A stretch of DNA of 64,000 nt, from assembly GCF_024362525.1 (NCBI RefSeq), contig NZ_CP101458.1, positions 1,240,001 through 1,304,000 on the forward strand. Direction: 5' to 3'. Origin of the DNA: Natrononativus amylolyticus (GTDB lineage: Archaea > Halobacteriota > Halobacteria > Halobacteriales > Natrialbaceae). The notes under the pieces are model-generated. The model had not been told where the DNA came from, did not search any database, and saw only the letters and a list, made by a program, of their open reading frames with translations. This document shows, one piece after another, positions 2,078 to 51,514 of the stretch. A program made the translations under genes and the position numbers. The first letter of the stretch is position 1. Each line of letters begins with the position of its first letter.

Positions 2078-2902
2078 CTACAGCGAGTAGGTCTCGCCGT
2101 CGACGGCCAGGGGCTCCTCGAACGCCTCCTCGACGGGGTAGAAGTGAGCGGCGTGGACCAGCCGCGTCCGGGTCGCGTTCAGTTCGTCGGCCAGCTCGAG
2201 CGCGCCCTCGCGGGTCATGTGCTTGGTTCCGAACGTTCGAGCGACGCCCTCGCTGGTCTCGTGGCGGCCGCCGATCGGGTGGTAGTCCGCGAGGCTCGCG
2301 GGGACGATCGCGTCGGCCAGAAAGAGGTCGGGGTCGGCCAGCACCTCGCGCGAGCGCTCGGGAACGGCGTAGCTGGTGTCGCCCGACAGCGACAGCTTCG
2401 CCCCCGTCTCGGGGTCCTCGATCGCGAGGCCGTAACACACCAGCGGCGGGTGGTCGACGGGGACGAGGGTGACGTCGAACCCGCAGACCCGCACCGGCTC
2501 GAGCGGCGTCGTCGGACGAACCGTCACCGCGTCGAGGTAGTAGTAGTCCGAGGCGACGGTGTCGGCGACGCTCTGGCCGGTTTCGGGGTCGATCTCGTCG
2601 GCGGCGTACACCTCGAGGTCCTCGAGGACGCGAAAGACGTTGCCGAGGCCGTCGAGGTGATCGAAGTGGACGTGCGTGACGACGGCAGCGTCGGGCAGCG
2701 GCGGCTCGTCACGGAGGAACTGATACCGGAGGTCGGGGCTCGCGTCGACCAGCAGCGACTCGCCCGCGCGTTCGTTCTCGACGTGTACCGAAAACCGGGT
2801 GCGCTCGACGCCGCGCTCGCGGGCGGCCTCACAGGTTTCACAGCGACAGCCGACCGTCGGCGTGCCGGTCGTATCGCCGGTTCCGAGGAGGGTCACGCGC
2901 AT
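2078..2902 (-). CDS. MBL-fold metallo-hydrolase, PhnP/PqqB-like
   Basis: The 274-residue protein starts at ATG 2902 with MRVTLLGTGDTTGTP. A longer reading to 3025 adds 41 Arg/Gly-rich residues with no family support. The metallo-beta-lactamase ligands are visible: THVHFDHLDG (about residues 79-88), a later SGDTSYAVP Asp, and His residues in HMTREG and HAAHFYP. A GCRCETC cysteine cluster near residue 20 matches the zinc-binding loop of PhnP-like phosphodiesterases. PhnP cleaves cyclic phosphoribosyl phosphate, but no phosphonate genes are nearby, so the substrate is unknown. Confidence 0.85.
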   Translation of the reverse strand: MRVTLLGTGDTTGTPTVGCRCETCEAARERGVERTRFSVHVENERAGESLLVDASPDLRYQFLRDEPPLPDAAVVTHVHFDHLDGLGNVFRVLEDLEVYAADEIDPETGQSVADTVASDYYYLDAVTVRPTTPLEPVRVCGFDVTLVPVDHPPLVCYGLAIEDPETGAKLSLSGDTSYAVPERSREVLADPDLFLADAIVPASLADYHPIGGRHETSEGVARTFGTKHMTREGALELADELNATRTRLVHAAHFYPVEEAFEEPLAVDGETYSL

Positions 2903-3092
2903 CCTACCACCCCCTTCCGCTGGCGGGCCGGCGCGGCGGTCTCGCGGTCGCTGCCGGCCGGTCCTCCCGACGTGATCCGGGGCGATGGCCCACTCATTGG
3001 CGTGCGCTTCGGTCGCCGGCACCAAGGCTGTTACCCGCCTGGGATCGAGGGCGAGGACGCGAACCGGACGCGAGGCACTTCGGTACGGATGT

Positions 3093-3109
3093 CTCTCAGC
3101 GGCTGAGAG
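3093..3109. repeat. Perfect 8-bp-arm inverted repeat
   Basis: CTCTCAGC and GCTGAGAG flank a single G, in the gap between the MBL gene and the tRNA-like sequence at 3162. It could be a cruciform, a dimeric-regulator site or an RNA hairpin. Nothing else in the 2903-3375 gap looks coding. Confidence 0.5.
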
Positions 3110-3161
3110 CCGCCGGTGGACACATTATGAAAGGAGTCGAACACGTAACCGTCGCACTCGC

Positions 3162-3232
3162 GTCCGAGGTGGTCTAATGTCAAGATCGCCCCGGTACGGG
3201 GAGATACGCGGTTCAACTCCCGTCCTCGGACC
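3162..3232 (+). pseudogene. tRNA-like sequence with degenerate anticodon and T arms (tRNA remnant)
   Basis: GTCCGAGG (3162-3169) pairs perfectly with CCTCGGAC (3224-3231), like an acceptor stem. Next comes TGGTCTAATGTCAAGA, which matches the D-arm of the tRNA-Gly at 47905 at 15 of 16 positions. A TTCAACT loop stands in the T-loop position. The anticodon arm is not canonical: CCCCG-GTA-CGGGG leaves no 7-base loop and no T33, and the T stem is mispaired. The reading is a decayed or rearranged tRNA, possibly the scar of an integration site next to the polysaccharide gene group. A functional tRNA-like RNA cannot be excluded. Confidence 0.5.
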
Positions 3233-3335
3233 TTCTCACTTCGTGTCGCCGGCCGACAGCGACCGCCCTCGAGAAACGCCGAGTAGTCGTCGGCCGAAAC
3301 CCCAGTAGGCGCCCGGTACCGTCCCGTACACGGTG

Positions 3336-3346
3336 AATACTTTATT
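3336..3346 (+). promoter_or_regulatory. Candidate TATA box for the GNAT gene
   Basis: AATACTTTATT lies 30-40 bp before the ATG at 3376 in otherwise GC-rich sequence. This is the spacing expected for a leaderless haloarchaeal transcript. Confidence 0.4.
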
Positions 3347-3375
3347 CCGTTACAGTCATCGGTTCCGGACAGTAG

Positions 3376-4479
3376 ATGTCTCAAAAAACAGCGACCGTCG
3401 GAGACCTCCCTCGCAAATCGGCGGTCACCGACGAGTACCGAGTCGTTCGGCAGACGGAGTCGGGCCACGAGCTCCGCGTCCTCGAGTCGATCCGCGGAAT
3501 CGAGCGCGAGCGGTGGAACGCGGTCGTCGAGCGCTCGAGTCGGGGAAGCGTCTTCCACCGCTACGAGTGGCTCGAGGCGATCGAGGTGGGGATCGGCTCG
3601 ACGCCCAGACACCTCGTCGTCACGAAGGACGGGAACGTCATCGGACTGTTTCCGAACTTCGTCGTCGGCATCGGGGAGACGCCGTTTCGGCGGCTGGTCT
3701 CCTCGCACCCGGGCTTCGGCGGCCCGGTGCTGACGACCGACGTCAAGACGTCGCTCTCGCTCGCGACGGAGGCGATTCCGACGCTCTGTACGGGTCGGAC
3801 CGTCGCCCACGAGATCCGGGTGTGCGACCCGAACTACCTCCGGTACAACGCTCACCTCGAGTCGGCGGGCTACCGACCGACGCGGATGGGCGGGCGGTTC
3901 GTCCTCGACCTGACCGACGGCTACGAGGAGGTCCTCGCCGGGATGAGCAAGAGCAGGCGCAAGGACATCCGCCGTGGCCGGGAGGGCGACTACGAGATCG
4001 TCGAGGAGGAGCTGACGGGCGAGCGACTCGAGCGGTTCTACCGCGTCTACGAACGGCACGTGGATCGACTCGGGGGGGAGCGTCTCGCCTTCGAGTTCTT
4101 CGAACACCTCCTGACGATGGAATCCCGCGTGCTGTTGCTCACGCTCCGCGTCGACGGCGAGTACGCCGGCGGATTCCTCGAGTTACTCGACGAGGAGCAG
4201 TCCGCGGTTCACGGCTTCGTCGCTGCGGTCCCGCCGGAGTACTTCGAGCACCACGCCTCGGAGCTGCTGTACGACTACGTGCTCCGCTGGGCGATCGAGA
4301 ACGGCTACGAGCGCTACGACTTCGGCGGCTCGGGGGCGAACTTCGAGAGCGGTGTCTTCCGGTACAAGGAGGGATTCGGCGGCGACCTCGTCCCGAACGT
4401 CTACTGGGAGCGGGGCTGTAGCCCGCTCTGGAAACCGATCGAGGCGGGTCGCTCGTTCTACCTGCGCCACCTGGCGTGA
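3376..4479 (+). CDS. FemAB-like GNAT-family N-acyltransferase
   Basis: The 367-residue protein has two GNAT-like halves, as in the FemAB/BioF2-like family. The first half has a donor-site type segment with LVVTKDGNVIGLFPNF at about residue 80. The second contains KSRRKDIRRGR (about 195) and the family-typical C-terminal YDFGGSGANFESGVFRYKEGFG (about 315-336). Related proteins transfer amino acids or acyl groups to cell-surface precursors. Placement beside an epimerase, flippase and glycosyltransferase suggests modification of a surface glycan. No signal peptide is present. The acyl donor is unknown. Confidence 0.8.
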   Translation: MSQKTATVGDLPRKSAVTDEYRVVRQTESGHELRVLESIRGIERERWNAVVERSSRGSVFHRYEWLEAIEVGIGSTPRHLVVTKDGNVIGLFPNFVVGIGETPFRRLVSSHPGFGGPVLTTDVKTSLSLATEAIPTLCTGRTVAHEIRVCDPNYLRYNAHLESAGYRPTRMGGRFVLDLTDGYEEVLAGMSKSRRKDIRRGREGDYEIVEEELTGERLERFYRVYERHVDRLGGERLAFEFFEHLLTMESRVLLLTLRVDGEYAGGFLELLDEEQSAVHGFVAAVPPEYFEHHASELLYDYVLRWAIENGYERYDFGGSGANFESGVFRYKEGFGGDLVPNVYWERGCSPLWKPIEAGRSFYLRHLA

Positions 4480-4549: not shown

Positions 4550-5542
4550 TTATTCCGCCGCCAGCCGTTCCGCCTCCCAGTCGAGGTACTCACACAGCCC
4601 GTCCTCGAGGGGACGGTGCTCCAGACCGAGTTCCGTCGTCGCCTTCGTGTTGTCCACCGGCCAGCGAGTCCCGGCGAACATTCTCACCCACTCGGCTTCG
4701 AACCCTTTCGGCGGCGTCACGGCCCGCTCGACGACGGACAGGGCGCCGGCGAGACCGCCGAACAGCTTCGGGGAGACGGCTCGTGGAGCGGGAACGCCCG
4801 TACACTCCTCGGCGAACGCGAGCACCTCCGTCAGCTCTCGCGGTTCGTTCGCGATGATGTAGACGTCGCCCGGTTCACCGCGGTCCATCGCCAGGACGTG
4901 CGCTCTGGCGGTGTCCTCCACGTGGTCGAGCGGCGCGTAGTATCCCTCTCGAGGACACAGCGGTACATTTCCCTGTAGATAATCCCGAAAGAACTGGCGG
5001 ACCGACCCGTGGCGCTTGTCACCGGGCCCGTAGACGATTCCCGGCTGGACGATTACGAGCGGGAGACCGTCGTCGATCATAGGTTGTGCCACCTCGTACT
5101 GTGCCTGCCACTTCGTTCGGACGTAGACGCTTCCGTCCGGGCGGTCCGGTGCGACGGATTCGTCGATGGTACCGCCCGCAGCGGGCGGGTAGACGCCGAT
5201 CGTACTCGTGTATACGCCCCTGGGAACGCCGAGTTCGCCCATCAGTTCGAGTACGTTTCGCGTCCCCTCGACGTTGATCCGCTCTGCGGTTTCGACGGCG
5301 CGCGGACCGGGGCCGACGTAGTACCACGCGGCGATGTGAAAGACGCCGTCGACGCCGGTCATCGCCGCTCGCATGCTCTCCTTCTCGGTGACGTCGCCCT
5401 CGACCACCGTCACGTCGGCCGGCAAGTGGCTCGCGTTCGAGCGCGAGCGCGTCAGCGCAACGACGTCGTGGCCGTCTTCGACGAGCCGTTCGGTTACGTG
5501 TGACCCGATCAGCCCGGTTGCCCCCGTGACGAAGTACTTCAT
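4550..5542 (-). CDS. NAD-dependent epimerase/dehydratase (extended SDR)
   Basis: The start at ATG 5542 gives MKYFVTGATGLIGSHV, the Rossmann glycine motif at residues 7-13. A longer reading to 5602 lacks family support. The Ser of YTSTIGVYPP (about 110) and the YVRTK Tyr/Lys pair (about 140) form the SDR catalytic triad. The 330-residue length fits extended SDRs that epimerise or dehydrate nucleotide sugars, though dihydroflavonol-reductase-like members look similar. Its neighbours suggest a nucleotide-sugar role. It is co-directional with the flippase, whose stop lies 73 bp before this start. Confidence 0.85.
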   Translation of the reverse strand: MKYFVTGATGLIGSHVTERLVEDGHDVVALTRSRSNASHLPADVTVVEGDVTEKESMRAAMTGVDGVFHIAAWYYVGPGPRAVETAERINVEGTRNVLELMGELGVPRGVYTSTIGVYPPAAGGTIDESVAPDRPDGSVYVRTKWQAQYEVAQPMIDDGLPLVIVQPGIVYGPGDKRHGSVRQFFRDYLQGNVPLCPREGYYAPLDHVEDTARAHVLAMDRGEPGDVYIIANEPRELTEVLAFAEECTGVPAPRAVSPKLFGGLAGALSVVERAVTPPKGFEAEWVRMFAGTRWPVDNTKATTELGLEHRPLEDGLCEYLDWEAERLAAE

Positions 5543-46761: not shown

Positions 46762-47556
46762 TCAGGAGAGTGGCTCCGGTTCCGGCGGAGCGTCGCGCTT
46801 GTGGGCGCTCGACTCGTACATGCCGCGGACGGCCGCTACGGTTTCCTCGTCGACCTCGAGCAACCGGCACGTCGCGGCGACCGAGAGCGGGCCGTCGATG
46901 TGGGTCGCGAGGACCGAATCGAGGGTGTCGTAGTCCATTCCCATCTCCGTCTCGTCGGTCTGGTCGTCCCAGAGTTCCGCCGTCGGCGTCTTCTCCACGA
47001 GGTCGTCGGGAACGCCCACGTGACGGGCGAGCTGACGGACCTGCTGCTTGTAGAGGTTTCCGATCGGGTGGCAGTCGACGGCGCCGTCGCCGTACTTCGT
47101 GAAGTAGCCGACGGCGGCCTCGCTGCGGTTGCCAGTTCCCAGCACGAGGCGGCTCTCGTGGTTTGCGACGAGGTAGTTGAGCACGCCGCGAACCCGCGCC
47201 CGGGCGTTGCCGACCGCGAGGTGATCCCCTTCGGCTTCGGGGTAGGCCTCGAGCAGCGCGTCGACCATCGGTTCGACCTCGATGACGTCGAACGGCATCT
47301 CGAGGCGGCGGGCGACGCGTTCTGCGTCGCTCATGTTGGCCGCAGCGCTGACTCGAGCCGGGAGGACGAGGCCGCGGACGTTCTCGGCGCCGAGGGCTTC
47401 GACGGCCAAATGAGCGACGAGAGTGCTGTCGATCCCCCCGGAGAGGCCGAGAACGGCGCCGTCGGCGCCCGCGGCGTCGGTCCGCTCGCGGATGAAGTCC
47501 GTGATGTGCTCGCGGTGCAAGTCGAGTTCCGCGTCCGAAAAGCGAAGATCGAGCAT
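46762..47556 (-). CDS. nadE: NAD(+) synthase, ammonia-dependent type
   Basis: The 264-residue protein has the PP-loop ATP pyrophosphatase motif GLSGGIDSTLVAHLAVEAL (about 38-56). The NAD-synthase landmark GTGNRSEAAVGYFTKYGDGAVD (about 141-162) and NLYKQQVRQLARHVGVPDDL (about 167-186) follow. No glutaminase domain is present, so ammonia is the likely nitrogen source. It converts deamido-NAD to NAD. ATG 47556 gives a family-length product. Confidence 0.95.
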   Translation of the reverse strand: MLDLRFSDAELDLHREHITDFIRERTDAAGADGAVLGLSGGIDSTLVAHLAVEALGAENVRGLVLPARVSAAANMSDAERVARRLEMPFDVIEVEPMVDALLEAYPEAEGDHLAVGNARARVRGVLNYLVANHESRLVLGTGNRSEAAVGYFTKYGDGAVDCHPIGNLYKQQVRQLARHVGVPDDLVEKTPTAELWDDQTDETEMGMDYDTLDSVLATHIDGPLSVAATCRLLEVDEETVAAVRGMYESSAHKRDAPPEPEPLS

Positions 47557-47703: not shown

Positions 47704-47739
47704 GCGCCGGTGGTCTAGTGGCAGGACATGAGCTTCCCA
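47704..47739 (+). pseudogene. 5' half of a split tRNA-Gly(CCC)
   Basis: GCGCCGG TG GTCTAGTGGCAGGAC A TGAGC TTCCCA forms acceptor strand, D arm, anticodon 5' stem and loop up to position 37. It then stops being a tRNA. The 3' half, starting exactly at position 38, lies at 48917-48951. Together the halves give a canonical 71-nt tRNA with anticodon CCC. Confidence 0.85.
47729..47739 (+). repeat. Left junction repeat TGAGCTTCCCA
   Basis: Eleven bases inside the tRNA-Gly anticodon arm, matching TGAGTTTCCCA at 48906-48916 with one C/T difference. This is a candidate attachment core or duplicated target. Confidence 0.75.
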
Positions 47740-47904
47740 CCCTCTCCGAAGGGGTTCACGGAGGGTCGAATTGAGTTTACAAGCCTCTGCTCCCAAATAC
47801 GATCAAGTTCCTGTAGGAGAGCGTCAGACGGCTCTCAATCGTATGGGCTGATCACTAAGGCGGAGCGCTTATCACCGTCCAACGGAAACGCAATTTTGCC
47901 GAGA

Positions 47905-47975
47905 GCGCGGTTGGTCTAATGGCAAGACAGTTGCCTCCCACGCAACTAATCCGGGTTCGACTCCCGGATCGCGCA
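47905..47975 (+). tRNA. tRNA-Gly(CCC), intact, within the insertion
   Basis: A complete 71-nt cloverleaf. Acceptor GCGCGGT pairs with ATCGCGC, discriminator A. The D arm is GTCTAATGGCAAGAC. Anticodon stem GTTGC/GCAAC encloses CTCCCAC (anticodon CCC), and the T arm is CCGGG-TTCGACT-CCCGG. It has the same anticodon as the split gene but a different anticodon stem, so it lacks the full TGAGYTTCCCA target and can replace the lost tRNA. Confidence 0.95.
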
Positions 47976-48297
47976 CTTCTTGATCAGTTCTTCGAGAGCG
48001 CGCCAGTGTGGAGCGTGAGCCGTTCCGGTGATGCGCCCCCGCCTTCTTGCGTAATTGCTCAAAGAGCAGTGAACTTCCTCAGAGAACGCCGTGGAGTGGT
48101 ATCTTCGGGACACAACTGCGGTCAACGCCTTCGGAATCGGGTTCCGCAGTGAGCTTTCAGTCGGGAACGGGGAGCCGCGCAAGCCGGGTTGAGTCGATCA
48201 CGGCCACACTCCCCGCCTTCACGAACGACCGATTGTTCGGGAGAAGACAAACTCACGTCCGGAGGACATTTGGGAAATAGTCACAAACGACTCCAGT

Positions 48298-48758
48298 ATG
48301 GCAACGGTCTACACGGAAGCGGATTGTATAGCTTCTCTTCGAGAGGCGACTCGAGAGGTAGGCAAATCTCCTACTCAGGCAGAATATAGAGGGCTTGATT
48401 TTTCGCCGTGCGTGACCCATATTTGCGACATTGCAGGTGGATGGAATGATGCGAAGAAGGCCGCAGACATTGAGACGTACGATCAAGTGGGAGAAGCGTA
48501 CGACCACGTACCGCTCTATCCGGACTCAAGCGGCTATGAGCGGTGGTACATACGTACGAAGGGGAACAACACGAAGTTAGCGTCCATCGGCTCCTTGCGG
48601 TCGTTGAGTTCGGTATGGACGCAGTGAAGGATAAGCAAATACATCACGAAAAGCCGATCCCGTGGCTCAATACTCCCGACAATATCATAGCGCTGACTAA
48701 GCGACAATACCTTGCGCTACATATTCTCATGGAGGATTTTGACGTGACGCTCGAGTAA
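48298..48758 (+). pseudogene. HNH homing-endonuclease-like gene, frameshifted
   Basis: ATG 48298 starts a frame with a homing-endonuclease-associated repeat: GKSPTQAEYRGLDFSPCVTH then IAGGWNDAKKAADIE (about 22-58). Near 48550 the sense moves to the -1 frame, where EGEQHEVSVHRLLAVVEFGM is followed by DKQIHHEKPIPWLNTPDNII and ALH, a clear HNH core. It ends at the stop 48756-48758. One missing base between 48549 and 48556 restores a protein of about 153 residues. The family cuts DNA for intron or element homing. Here it appears inactive, unless frameshifting is programmed. Confidence 0.8.
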
Positions 48759-48905
48759 TAGTTAGAACAATGAGCGCATGGCTATCCGTCGTGGGTTTTG
48801 AAGTTCGTTAATCGTAGGGACGGATAGGGGACAAAATGAACGCGCTCAATTCCGGTCTATGGTACGGCAGAGTTGCCGTAGGCATTGCTGAGCGCGGAGC
48901 GCACC

Positions 48906-48916
48906 TGAGTTTCCCA
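48906..48916 (+). repeat. Right junction repeat TGAGTTTCCCA
   Basis: Matches the left repeat at 10 of 11 bases and directly precedes position 38 of the tRNA 3' half. Confidence 0.75.
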
Positions 48917-48951
48917 AGCTCATAGCCCGGGTTCGACTCCCGGTCGGCGCA
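48917..48951 (+). pseudogene. 3' half of the split tRNA-Gly(CCC)
   Basis: A GCTCA TAGC CCGGG TTCGACT CCCGG TCGGCGC A: anticodon 3' stem, variable loop, T arm and acceptor strand. GCTCA pairs with TGAGC of the left half at 47729-47733. The acceptor TCGGCGC pairs with GCGCCGG at 47704-47710 with one G-T pair. Without splicing or recombination it cannot make a tRNA. Confidence 0.85.
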
Positions 48952-49156
48952 TTGTCATCGTCTTGGGGTGACGTCGGCGACGAGCCAGGGCGACGGACGG
49001 TCGGTCGTTTTCGTCTCCGCACACGACGCTGCAACGAGGGTGACGTCCAGTTTTATTCCCAATAGTACATATTTACGTTATATCGATTACTTATAGCCAC
49101 AATTAGGACAGGTGAACGGATACAGTCATCCTATCCTGACTATCGTCTTGATTGAG

Positions 49157-50323
49157 ATGACACGCTGTTCGACACGCCGTCGGTTCCTCGCGACCGTCGG
49201 AGCCGCGACGGCTGCAGCATCGTTCCCCGCGGTCGGCACTGCAACCGCTCGTTCGCGACAGAGCGACGGTGCCGTGGTGTTCGTCTACGACGACGGCCCG
49301 ATCGAAGACTACACCCAGGCGTTTCCCGCCCACCAGGCCTTCGACGCCCCCGCCAGCACCGGCATCGTCACCGAGTGGATCGGCCGCGAGGACTTCATGG
49401 GCACCGACTGGATGGACCTCGAGCACCTCCGAGAACTCGAGGACGCCGGCTGGGAGATCCTCTCACACACCACCGAACACACCGCCCTGGGAACTTTCGC
49501 GCTCACGGCCGACGTCGAGCCATCCGACCGCCGCATCCACGTCGAGCGGAACCGCCACGGGTACTACCGCGGGAAGGACCTCGAGATCACCGACGGCGAT
49601 CATACCGTCCGGCGCACGGTCGTCGACTACGGCACCGACGACGTCGGCCAGTACATCGACCTCGACGAGCCGCTCGAGCGGGCGTTCGCCGCCGAGGAGA
49701 CCGTCGAGCGCTACCCCGCAGACCACATGGAGGAGTTCCTCCTCGAATCCAGACGCGAACTCGAGTCCTACGGCTTCGACGTCGACGGCATCCTCTGTCC
49801 GTACGACAGCTGCGACGACTGGACGCGGAAGTTCGTCCGCCAGTACTACGAGACCAACGCCAACGCCAACCACGGCTCGCCCGTCAACGATCCCGGCGAC
49901 TACGACCCTCACGAGACGAACCGCGACTACTTCATCGAGTTCACCACCCGCGAGGCCGTCAAAGCCGACCTCGACGAGATCGCCGCACGGGACGCCCTCG
50001 GCGTCATCGGCGCCCACACCTTCAAAGAGGAGGTGACTGAAGACCGCATCTACGAGACCCTCCAGTGGGTCGACGACCGCGGCCTCGAGGTCCTCACCCT
50101 CCGGGAGGCCGCCGAACGCTTCGGCGGGCAGAGCGAGGCCGACGAGAGCCGAGAGCGACGGTCCATCGGCTCCTCGCGACCCGGAGCCGTCCCCAGCCCG
50201 CGATCGGAGTCGGCGCTGCCGTCGGCCCGGAGCTCTTCACCCCGCTGGCGATGGTTCACCGGTACGGCCGACGTCGCGACCTGGCCGATGCGATTCTACT
50301 CGGGACTGTTCCGGCGCTGGTAG
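49157..50323 (+). CDS. Tat-exported polysaccharide deacetylase-family protein, copy 1
   Basis: From ATG 49157 the protein has 388 residues, starting MTRCSTRRRFLATVGAATAA, a Tat signal. The deacetylase (NodB-like) fold starts with VVFVYDDGPIEDY (about 39-51), whose DD pair supplies the metal Asp. SHTTEHTALGTF (about 100-111) supplies the His ligands. Residues 38-325 are nearly identical to copy 2. The final 60 residues are unique, basic and Ser/Pro-rich, unlike copy 2. A TATA-like CTTATAG lies at 49090-49096. It may trim acetyl groups from extracellular polysaccharide; activity is inferred. Confidence 0.85.
   Translation: MTRCSTRRRFLATVGAATAAASFPAVGTATARSRQSDGAVVFVYDDGPIEDYTQAFPAHQAFDAPASTGIVTEWIGREDFMGTDWMDLEHLRELEDAGWEILSHTTEHTALGTFALTADVEPSDRRIHVERNRHGYYRGKDLEITDGDHTVRRTVVDYGTDDVGQYIDLDEPLERAFAAEETVERYPADHMEEFLLESRRELESYGFDVDGILCPYDSCDDWTRKFVRQYYETNANANHGSPVNDPGDYDPHETNRDYFIEFTTREAVKADLDEIAARDALGVIGAHTFKEEVTEDRIYETLQWVDDRGLEVLTLREAAERFGGQSEADESRERRSIGSSRPGAVPSPRSESALPSARSSSPRWRWFTGTADVATWPMRFYSGLFRRW
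49268..50130 (+). repeat. Direct repeat unit A (about 0.86 kb), duplicated at 50543
   Basis: Nearly identical DNA at a constant offset of 1,275 bp, covering the mature deacetylase domain but not the signal peptide or tail. Recent tandem duplication or gene conversion. Confidence 0.9.
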
Positions 50324-50443: not shown

Positions 50444-51514
50444 ATGGGAACGAGTCTATCTCGCCGACACGTACTCGCAGCGATCGGCGCAGGGGGGATC
50501 GCACTGACGACGCCGGCGCAGGGACGCGCCGACTCGTCGGCCGGTGCCGTGGTGTTCGTCTACGACGACGGCCCGATCGAAGACTACACTCAGGCGTTTC
50601 CCGCCCACCAGGCCTTCGACGCCCCCGCCAGCACCGGCATCGTCACCGAGTGGATCGGCCGCGAAAACTTCATGGGTACCGACTGGATGGACCTCGAGCA
50701 CCTCCGCGAACTCGAGGACGCCGGCTGGGAGATCCTCTCACACACCACCGAACACACCGCCCTGGGAACTTTCGCGCTCACGGCCGACGTCGAGCCGTCC
50801 GACCGCCGCATCCACGTCGAGCGGAACCGCCACGGGTACTACCGCGGGAAGGACCTCGAGATCACCGACGGCGATCACACCGTCCGGCGCACCGTCGTCG
50901 ATTACGGCACCGACGACGTCGGCCAGTACATCGACCTCGACGAGCCGCTCGAGCGGGCGTTCGCCGCCGAGGAGACCGTCGAGCGCTACCCCGCAGACCA
51001 CATGGAGGAGTTCCTCCTCGAATCCAGACGCGAACTCGAGTCCTACGGCTTCGACGTCGACGGCATCCTCTGTCCGTACGACAGCTGCGACGACTGGACC
51101 GTCGAATTCGTCCGCCAGTACTACGAGACCAACGCCAACGCCAACCACGGCTCGCCCATTAACGATCCCGGCGACTACGACCCTCACGAGACGAACCGCG
51201 ACTACTTCATCGAGTTCACCACCCGCGAGGCCGTCAAAGCTGACCTCGACGAGATCGCCGCACGGGACGCCCTCGGCGTCATCGGCGCCCACACCTTCAA
51301 AGAGGAGGTGACTGAAGACCGCATCTACGAGACCCTCCAGTGGGTCGACGACCGCGGCCTCGAGGTCCTCACCCTCCGGGAGGCCGCCGAACGCTTCGGC
51401 GGGACGGCGGCCTCGGCTCGCTCGCAGCCGACCGGCAGGCTCACAGGTCCCGTCCGCGGGATGCCCCATCGGGATCGGTTCCCCGGCCCGGGTCGCGTCT
51501 GGTACCGTCCCTGA
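50444..51514 (+). CDS. Tat-exported polysaccharide deacetylase-family protein, copy 2
   Basis: The 356-residue protein starts MGTSLSRRHVLAAIGAGGIA, a Tat signal unrelated in sequence to that of copy 1. Residues 34-320 match copy 1 with only a handful of changes: ED to EN near the WIGREDFMG segment, RK to VE in DDWTRKFVRQ, and V to I in GSPVND. The C-terminal 35 residues differ and are shorter. All candidate metal ligands (VYDDGP, SHTTEH) are kept. It has its own AT-rich promoter region (50395-50440), so both copies may be expressed independently. Confidence 0.85.
   Translation: MGTSLSRRHVLAAIGAGGIALTTPAQGRADSSAGAVVFVYDDGPIEDYTQAFPAHQAFDAPASTGIVTEWIGRENFMGTDWMDLEHLRELEDAGWEILSHTTEHTALGTFALTADVEPSDRRIHVERNRHGYYRGKDLEITDGDHTVRRTVVDYGTDDVGQYIDLDEPLERAFAAEETVERYPADHMEEFLLESRRELESYGFDVDGILCPYDSCDDWTVEFVRQYYETNANANHGSPINDPGDYDPHETNRDYFIEFTTREAVKADLDEIAARDALGVIGAHTFKEEVTEDRIYETLQWVDDRGLEVLTLREAAERFGGTAASARSQPTGRLTGPVRGMPHRDRFPGPGRVWYRP
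50543..51405 (+). repeat. Direct repeat unit B, copy of 49268-50130
   Basis: Second member of the tandem pair; differences are mostly third-position changes plus about four amino-acid replacements. Confidence 0.9.

Follow-up and report, generated by a model that had tools for sequence, protein, structure and literature searches.

How does a tRNA gene come to be cut in its anticodon loop by DNA that itself carries a complete gene for a tRNA with the same anticodon? The question is raised by the window, i.e. the whole 64,000-nucleotide stretch of the Natrononativus amylolyticus genome analysed here. In it the 5' half of a native tRNA-Gly(CCC) (tRNA positions 1-37; 47704..47739, + strand) and its 3' half (position 38 to the end; 48917..48951, + strand) are separated by an insert of 1,177 bp (47740..48916, + strand).

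The interrupted gene and its empty sites

Joined, the two halves form a perfect 71-nt cloverleaf with anticodon CCC. Each half matches the tRNA of a relative (G089) at 100%, and the complete G089 tRNA-Gly(CCC) is identical to the joined halves, which bears out the split gene described in an earlier note on this DNA. The locus is fixed by a conserved neighbor outside the element, the NAD synthetase gene nadE (an ORF at 46762..47556, - strand), which adjoins tRNA-Gly(CCC) in every relative compared that has nadE in reach; the strand of the tRNA relative to nadE is different in genus g5 and in G017. At this locus the uninterrupted tRNA-Gly(CCC) that the earlier note expected in close relatives is present in both G016 and G089, which thus represent empty sites. 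Among 125 Natrialbaceae genomes covered by pattern surveys, the window alone has an orphan native 5' half.

Both junctions carry the motif TGAGYTTCCCA, as read directly from the DNA: an attL-like left copy, TGAGCTTCCCA (47729..47739, + strand), and an attR-like right copy, TGAGTTTCCCA (48906..48916, + strand), form a direct repeat of 11 bp in which 10/11 positions are identical. The chance of such an imperfect repeat at a given place is about 34/4^11 = 8e-6. The insert thus lies at a target site within a tRNA gene, for which relatives offer empty sites, and is bounded at both ends by a short direct repeat that would correspond to an att core. Since the motif is present at both ends, the breakpoint can be placed anywhere within the 11 bp; accordingly, of the earlier statement that the gene is broken exactly between positions 37 and 38, the joined halves and the 1,177-bp insert stand, while the exact position is not provable. 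The right end of the insert, which reads CACCTGAGTTTCCCAAGC, is homologous to the right end of the corresponding element in G121; G147 keeps an 11-nt trace of a right end, and the orphan 3' half in G133 reads CACCCTGAGCCTTCCAAGC. An extra tRNA called by ARAGORN at 48877-48950 is an artefact produced by the right-junction repeat, which rebuilds an anticodon arm, and Rfam lends it no support.

Repeats of hairpin form were also encountered beside native tRNA-Gly(CCC) genes. At L030 (1260-1328) they open with the tRNA's initial 11 nt (GCGCCGGTGGT), and their end resembles the tRNA acceptor strand; such repeats also flank the native gene in L108, L109, L116, L117, L121 and L158, and those of G014 track that genome's own altered acceptor (GCACCGG/CGGTGC). 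The tandem tRNA-Gly genes of G016 (L121) and G014 (L158) were considered as rescue copies and rejected, as some of them are acceptor-damaged pseudo-copies, with GTCCATCGGAAGT in place of the 5' acceptor strand.

A replacement tRNA with a recoded anticodon arm

Within the insert, both ARAGORN and Rfam (63 bits) call a complete tRNA-Gly(CCC) (47905..47975, + strand), in agreement with the note's expectation for a tRNA finder. Its anticodon arm is recoded (TTGCCTCCCACGCAA), with compensatory stem changes relative to G017 and G121, and no longer contains the core TGAGYTTCCCA. It is the sole intact tRNA-Gly(CCC) that a pattern search found in the genome. A tRNA-Gly(TCC) exists elsewhere in the same genome (L005), so that reading of GGG without a CCC anticodon is conceivable. 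The proposal that the insertion breaks a tRNA and compensates for it with a full copy is therefore directly visible as a split native gene enclosing a complete inner one, and the inner copy is presumably expressed and doing the work of the native tRNA. The native gene stays broken rather than being rebuilt by a 3' half brought by the element, a whole second tRNA being supplied instead; because the target is not rebuilt, we class the element as a variant of the tRNA-targeting elements. When the variant tRNA of G017 is compared to the native tRNA of genus g5 (G161), all 8 differences fall in the anticodon arm. Together with the changed core, this restriction of the differences to one arm is consistent with a rescue copy that would be immune to re-integration.

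Distribution of the variant tRNA in Natrialbaceae

Nearly all tRNA-Gly(CCC) genes found in the 125 genomes have the loop TTCCCAA, whereas a variant with the loop CTCCCAC and a different stem is found in 8 of them, belonging to five genera, by pattern searches that miss diverged forms of the variant. In the seven variant genomes other than the window, no native copy was found. On a tree of nadE from 31 loci the tRNA type changes 8 times, gain and loss of the variant type not being distinguishable in this count, and grouping the variants as one clade is rejected (p-AU 1.6e-79). When the tree is built from the 100 nt preceding the tRNA, on the other hand, the variants form a single clade with support of 100/99. 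The leader has thus travelled with the variant tRNA, and the pair has entered this one locus repeatedly. Transfer is favored because the shared foreign leader sits inside otherwise native genera, and the phylogenies accordingly favor a recurrent movement of this leader and tRNA across genera into one locus.

A tyrosine recombinase relic before the variant tRNA

Between the left junction and the inner tRNA lies the 3'-end relic of a tyrosine-recombinase gene (47795..47851, + strand; KYDQVPVGERQTALNRMG followed by a stop), recovered by a short-region search (E 2.3e-7, 78% identity over 18 aa) and spanning the region of the catalytic tyrosine. At 47795-47848 the relic is faint, and the earlier note did not see it; in two relatives it is clear. 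It was initially a candidate for an unknown small gene; Pfam gave no match, and comparison with other genomes revealed it to be the end of an integrase gene. Longer relics occupy the same place in G121 (45 aa) and G133 (about 88 aa plus fragments), and in all three cases some 50-65 bp separate the end of the integrase relic from the variant tRNA (E 7e-22 in G121, 2e-16 in G133, 2e-7 in the window). The stretch matches the ends of 370-425-aa proteins from many haloarchaea, which are tyrosine recombinases. G017 has a probable relic at a like distance before its variant tRNA (E 1e-3), and nothing comparable was found upstream of the native tRNA-Gly(CCC) loci. At the remaining 4 of the 8 variant loci (G001, G060, G147 and G148) no integrase relic is seen, and recombination of the flanks may have produced them.

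Members of the same integrase family occur in conventional islands. In G076 an intact integrase of the family directly follows a native tRNA-Gly(CCC), while in G059 an integrase N-terminus directly follows tRNA-Gly(CCC), with an orphan 3' half starting TTCCCAAGC 56 kb away. The family also adjoins tRNA-Gly(TCC) in G133, G118, G128 and G035, and in these islands the orphan 3' halves begin within the anticodon stem, on its 5' strand. Thus, the idea of a site-specific element, one of the two possibilities raised in the earlier note, is well supported by the integrase relic, the att-like repeats and conventional islands with like junctions. An intact integrase together with the variant tRNA was not found among the elements searched, nor was the unit found in the viruses or plasmids searched.

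Across different haloarchaea the family adjoins tRNA-Gly(CCC), tRNA-Gly(TCC) and tRNA-Glu(CTC) (L201 of G076, and L197-L200), and it seems able to switch its target. In the genome of the window itself (L115; C1:2464000-2478000), an element near a tRNA-Ala(CGC) encodes both a tyrosine recombinase (2450-3481) and, further along, an HNH-repeat protein (4733-5185), and short stretches of it are similar to window positions 47996-48204.

The HNH gene of the insert

Downstream of the inner tRNA the insert contains an HNH endonuclease gene with an HNH_repeat domain (48298..48758, + strand; PF18780, with a weak match to PF13392). The note's claim of an HNH gene holds as to its presence, though not as to its integrity: the gene is frameshifted into ORFs 48298-48627 and 48543-48758, and from this disruption it is probably dead. 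Orthologs without stops, at 75-82% identity, are encoded by G159, G143, G121, G147 and G131, the last without an ATG start; the G017 gene is frameshifted as well. No relative of the protein was found in the PDB by sequence, and AlphaFold, given five sequences, produced a model of low quality (pLDDT 48). The gene is probably a cargo of the element.

A protein with homing-endonuclease-associated repeats also adjoins tRNA-Gln(CTG) in very many haloarchaea (L033-L055 and L168-L180), where it is perhaps domesticated. These HNH-repeat proteins were examined as candidate split-tRNA elements and rejected, since they look like a conserved neighbor of that tRNA.

Competing explanations and a proposed mechanism

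A natural 'cleave and rescue' system could in principle generate such a locus by homing. The HNH enzyme would cut the native anticodon arm, the block of the carrier (leader, variant tRNA and HNH gene) would be copied in by repair, and the recoded tRNA would be immune. In keeping with this, all seven HNH genes (7/7) lie at the nadE locus, about 100-330 bp directly downstream of tRNA-Gly(CCC), the stop-free copies are under purifying selection (dN/dS 0.035-0.09), and all of the variant's differences from its closest native tRNA (8/8) are within the anticodon arm. The gene is moreover found in 4/8 variant genomes as against 3/about 97 native ones (Fisher p 5e-4, uncorrected for kinship); a paired test of its association with the variant tRNA was, however, not significant. 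In G131 (whose HNH gene lacks an ATG start), G143 and G159 the native tRNA next to the HNH gene is unbroken and retains its entire core, so that HNH alone fails to explain the variant tRNA. Because of these three genomes, homing by the HNH enzyme, the other possibility in the earlier note, becomes the weaker branch, and as integration better accounts for the integrase relic and the att-like repeat, the finding of the relic shifted our preference from homing, which we now regard as unlikely, to integration.

Haloarchaea readily exchange DNA, and a foreign segment with the tRNA and the HNH gene might have entered by illegitimate or short-homology recombination, its recurrence then reflecting ordinary homologous exchange in which nadE and further flanking DNA served as the shared sequence. 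The element relic is indeed absent at four variant loci, and the identities of HNH and nadE are alike between carriers, their divergence showing no clear incongruence when used as a test of transfer. Against such ordinary transfer stand the core repeat, the integrase relic at four variant loci and the right junction that the window and G121 share in the same anticodon arm, which together render it quite improbable. Archaeal tRNA introns, for their part, are usually found at position 37/38, and both native halves are still perfect, which would suit a giant intron whose removal splices the halves together. The gene is, however, whole in relatives, the 3' end of the insert (GCACCTGAGTTTCCCA) has no GGG that could pair with the anticodon for a bulge-helix-bulge, and no such fold was seen at the exon-intron junctions; an intron is thus hardly credible. 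A group I or II intron was rejected, as no Rfam intron model matches in the window, where three tRNAs alone reach the gathering score.

Thus, the insert is probably the worn remnant of a site-specific integrase element that broke a tRNA and delivered an intact substitute recoded in its anticodon arm. The element would have been ordered attL, integrase, variant tRNA, HNH and attR. Strand exchange by its tyrosine recombinase would have taken place at the core TGAGYTTCCCA, within the anticodon loop of the native tRNA-Gly(CCC). Ordinary elements with this integrase family restore the tRNA that they enter; here, the attachment site having no 3' half, the host tRNA would have been left broken. The complete tRNA-Gly(CCC) that came with it, under its own leader and with the core gone from its recoded arm, would now work for the host and presumably be unusable for a further integration. 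Nearly all of the integrase gene, which would have stood between attL and the replacement tRNA, would since have been deleted; the HNH gene, between that tRNA and attR, is frameshifted. Both the insertion by the integrase and this order of events are inferred. Other lineages would go on to lose what is left of the native tRNA, the integrase and the HNH gene, until the foreign tRNA alone occupies the native position. G121 retains the order integrase relic, variant tRNA, HNH and orphan native 3' half, its 5' half being lost. Judged by its halves, the window is the freshest case, despite its nearly vanished integrase and broken HNH gene. Since the compact order of tRNA, HNH and right end recurs in two genera, and the halves in the window belong to its own lineage, this unit was itself probably mobile. 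A more tentative extension, which we consider possible though doubtful, is that a complete element of ~2.3 kb (integrase, recoded tRNA-Gly(CCC) and HNH) breaks the host tRNA, provides an immune substitute and spreads in the family by repeated allele replacement, with integrase and endonuclease cooperating in a natural replace-and-rescue system.

Precedents and implications

The direct precedent, and the closest description found, is presented by the vTRX32-1-like prophages of Rhizobium leguminosarum, which carry a replacement tRNA-Leu without the 12-bp att motif and for which a prevention of re-integration has been proposed (PMC8631192). They share with the haloarchaeal element end repeats in a host tRNA (12 bp in their case), the interruption of that tRNA and a whole, motif-free replacement. 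They differ in being bacterial phages of 42-45 kb with full phage gene sets, as opposed to an archaeal remnant of 1.2 kb with an HNH gene, and it is the haloarchaeal case that provides evidence of repeated transfer of the replacement tRNA between genera. Conventional archaeal tRNA-targeting elements, like the one proposed here, use a tyrosine recombinase that acts within the anticodon loop, and they too have an orphan 3' half at their far end; after integration, however, they rebuild the target tRNA from their own 3' half (PMC8371274). In the window the destroyed gene is replaced by a complete second tRNA instead. The view in the earlier note that such an arrangement is unusual is upheld for archaea within the scope of the literature searches, which found no published account of such a replacement-tRNA element in haloarchaea, but has to be qualified in light of the Rhizobium prophages (PMC8631192).

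Two endonuclease-based systems are partial parallels. In fungal mitochondrial mobile ORFs of the Allomyces atp6 type, an endonuclease gene likewise travels with a foreign replacement and the displaced native part is left downstream; these, however, concern mitochondrial protein genes, the replacement is partial and endonuclease-driven mobility has been demonstrated (PMC3630166), whereas such a role of the HNH gene here would be hypothetical. Free-standing endonucleases of phage T4, such as SegB in the tRNA region, are similarly encoded beside tRNA genes and co-convert linked alleles, but SegB is a GIY-YIG enzyme of phage genomes with demonstrated cleavage and no split tRNA (PMC2988022).

If the insert is indeed such an integrase element, a mobile element would have tied its host to a tRNA of foreign origin, and a native tRNA gene would be swappable at one fixed locus, repeatedly, in related lineages. 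Such swaps would account for the patchy occurrence of tRNA alleles in haloarchaea, and the element would allow target-site immunity to be tested where it forms part of a rescue gene.

Beyond the native 3' half, the window contains two adjoining and near-identical genes for exported proteins (49112-50323 and 50444-51514, starting MTRCSTRRRFLATVG and MGTSLSRRHVLAAIG, respectively), pointing to a recent tandem duplication.
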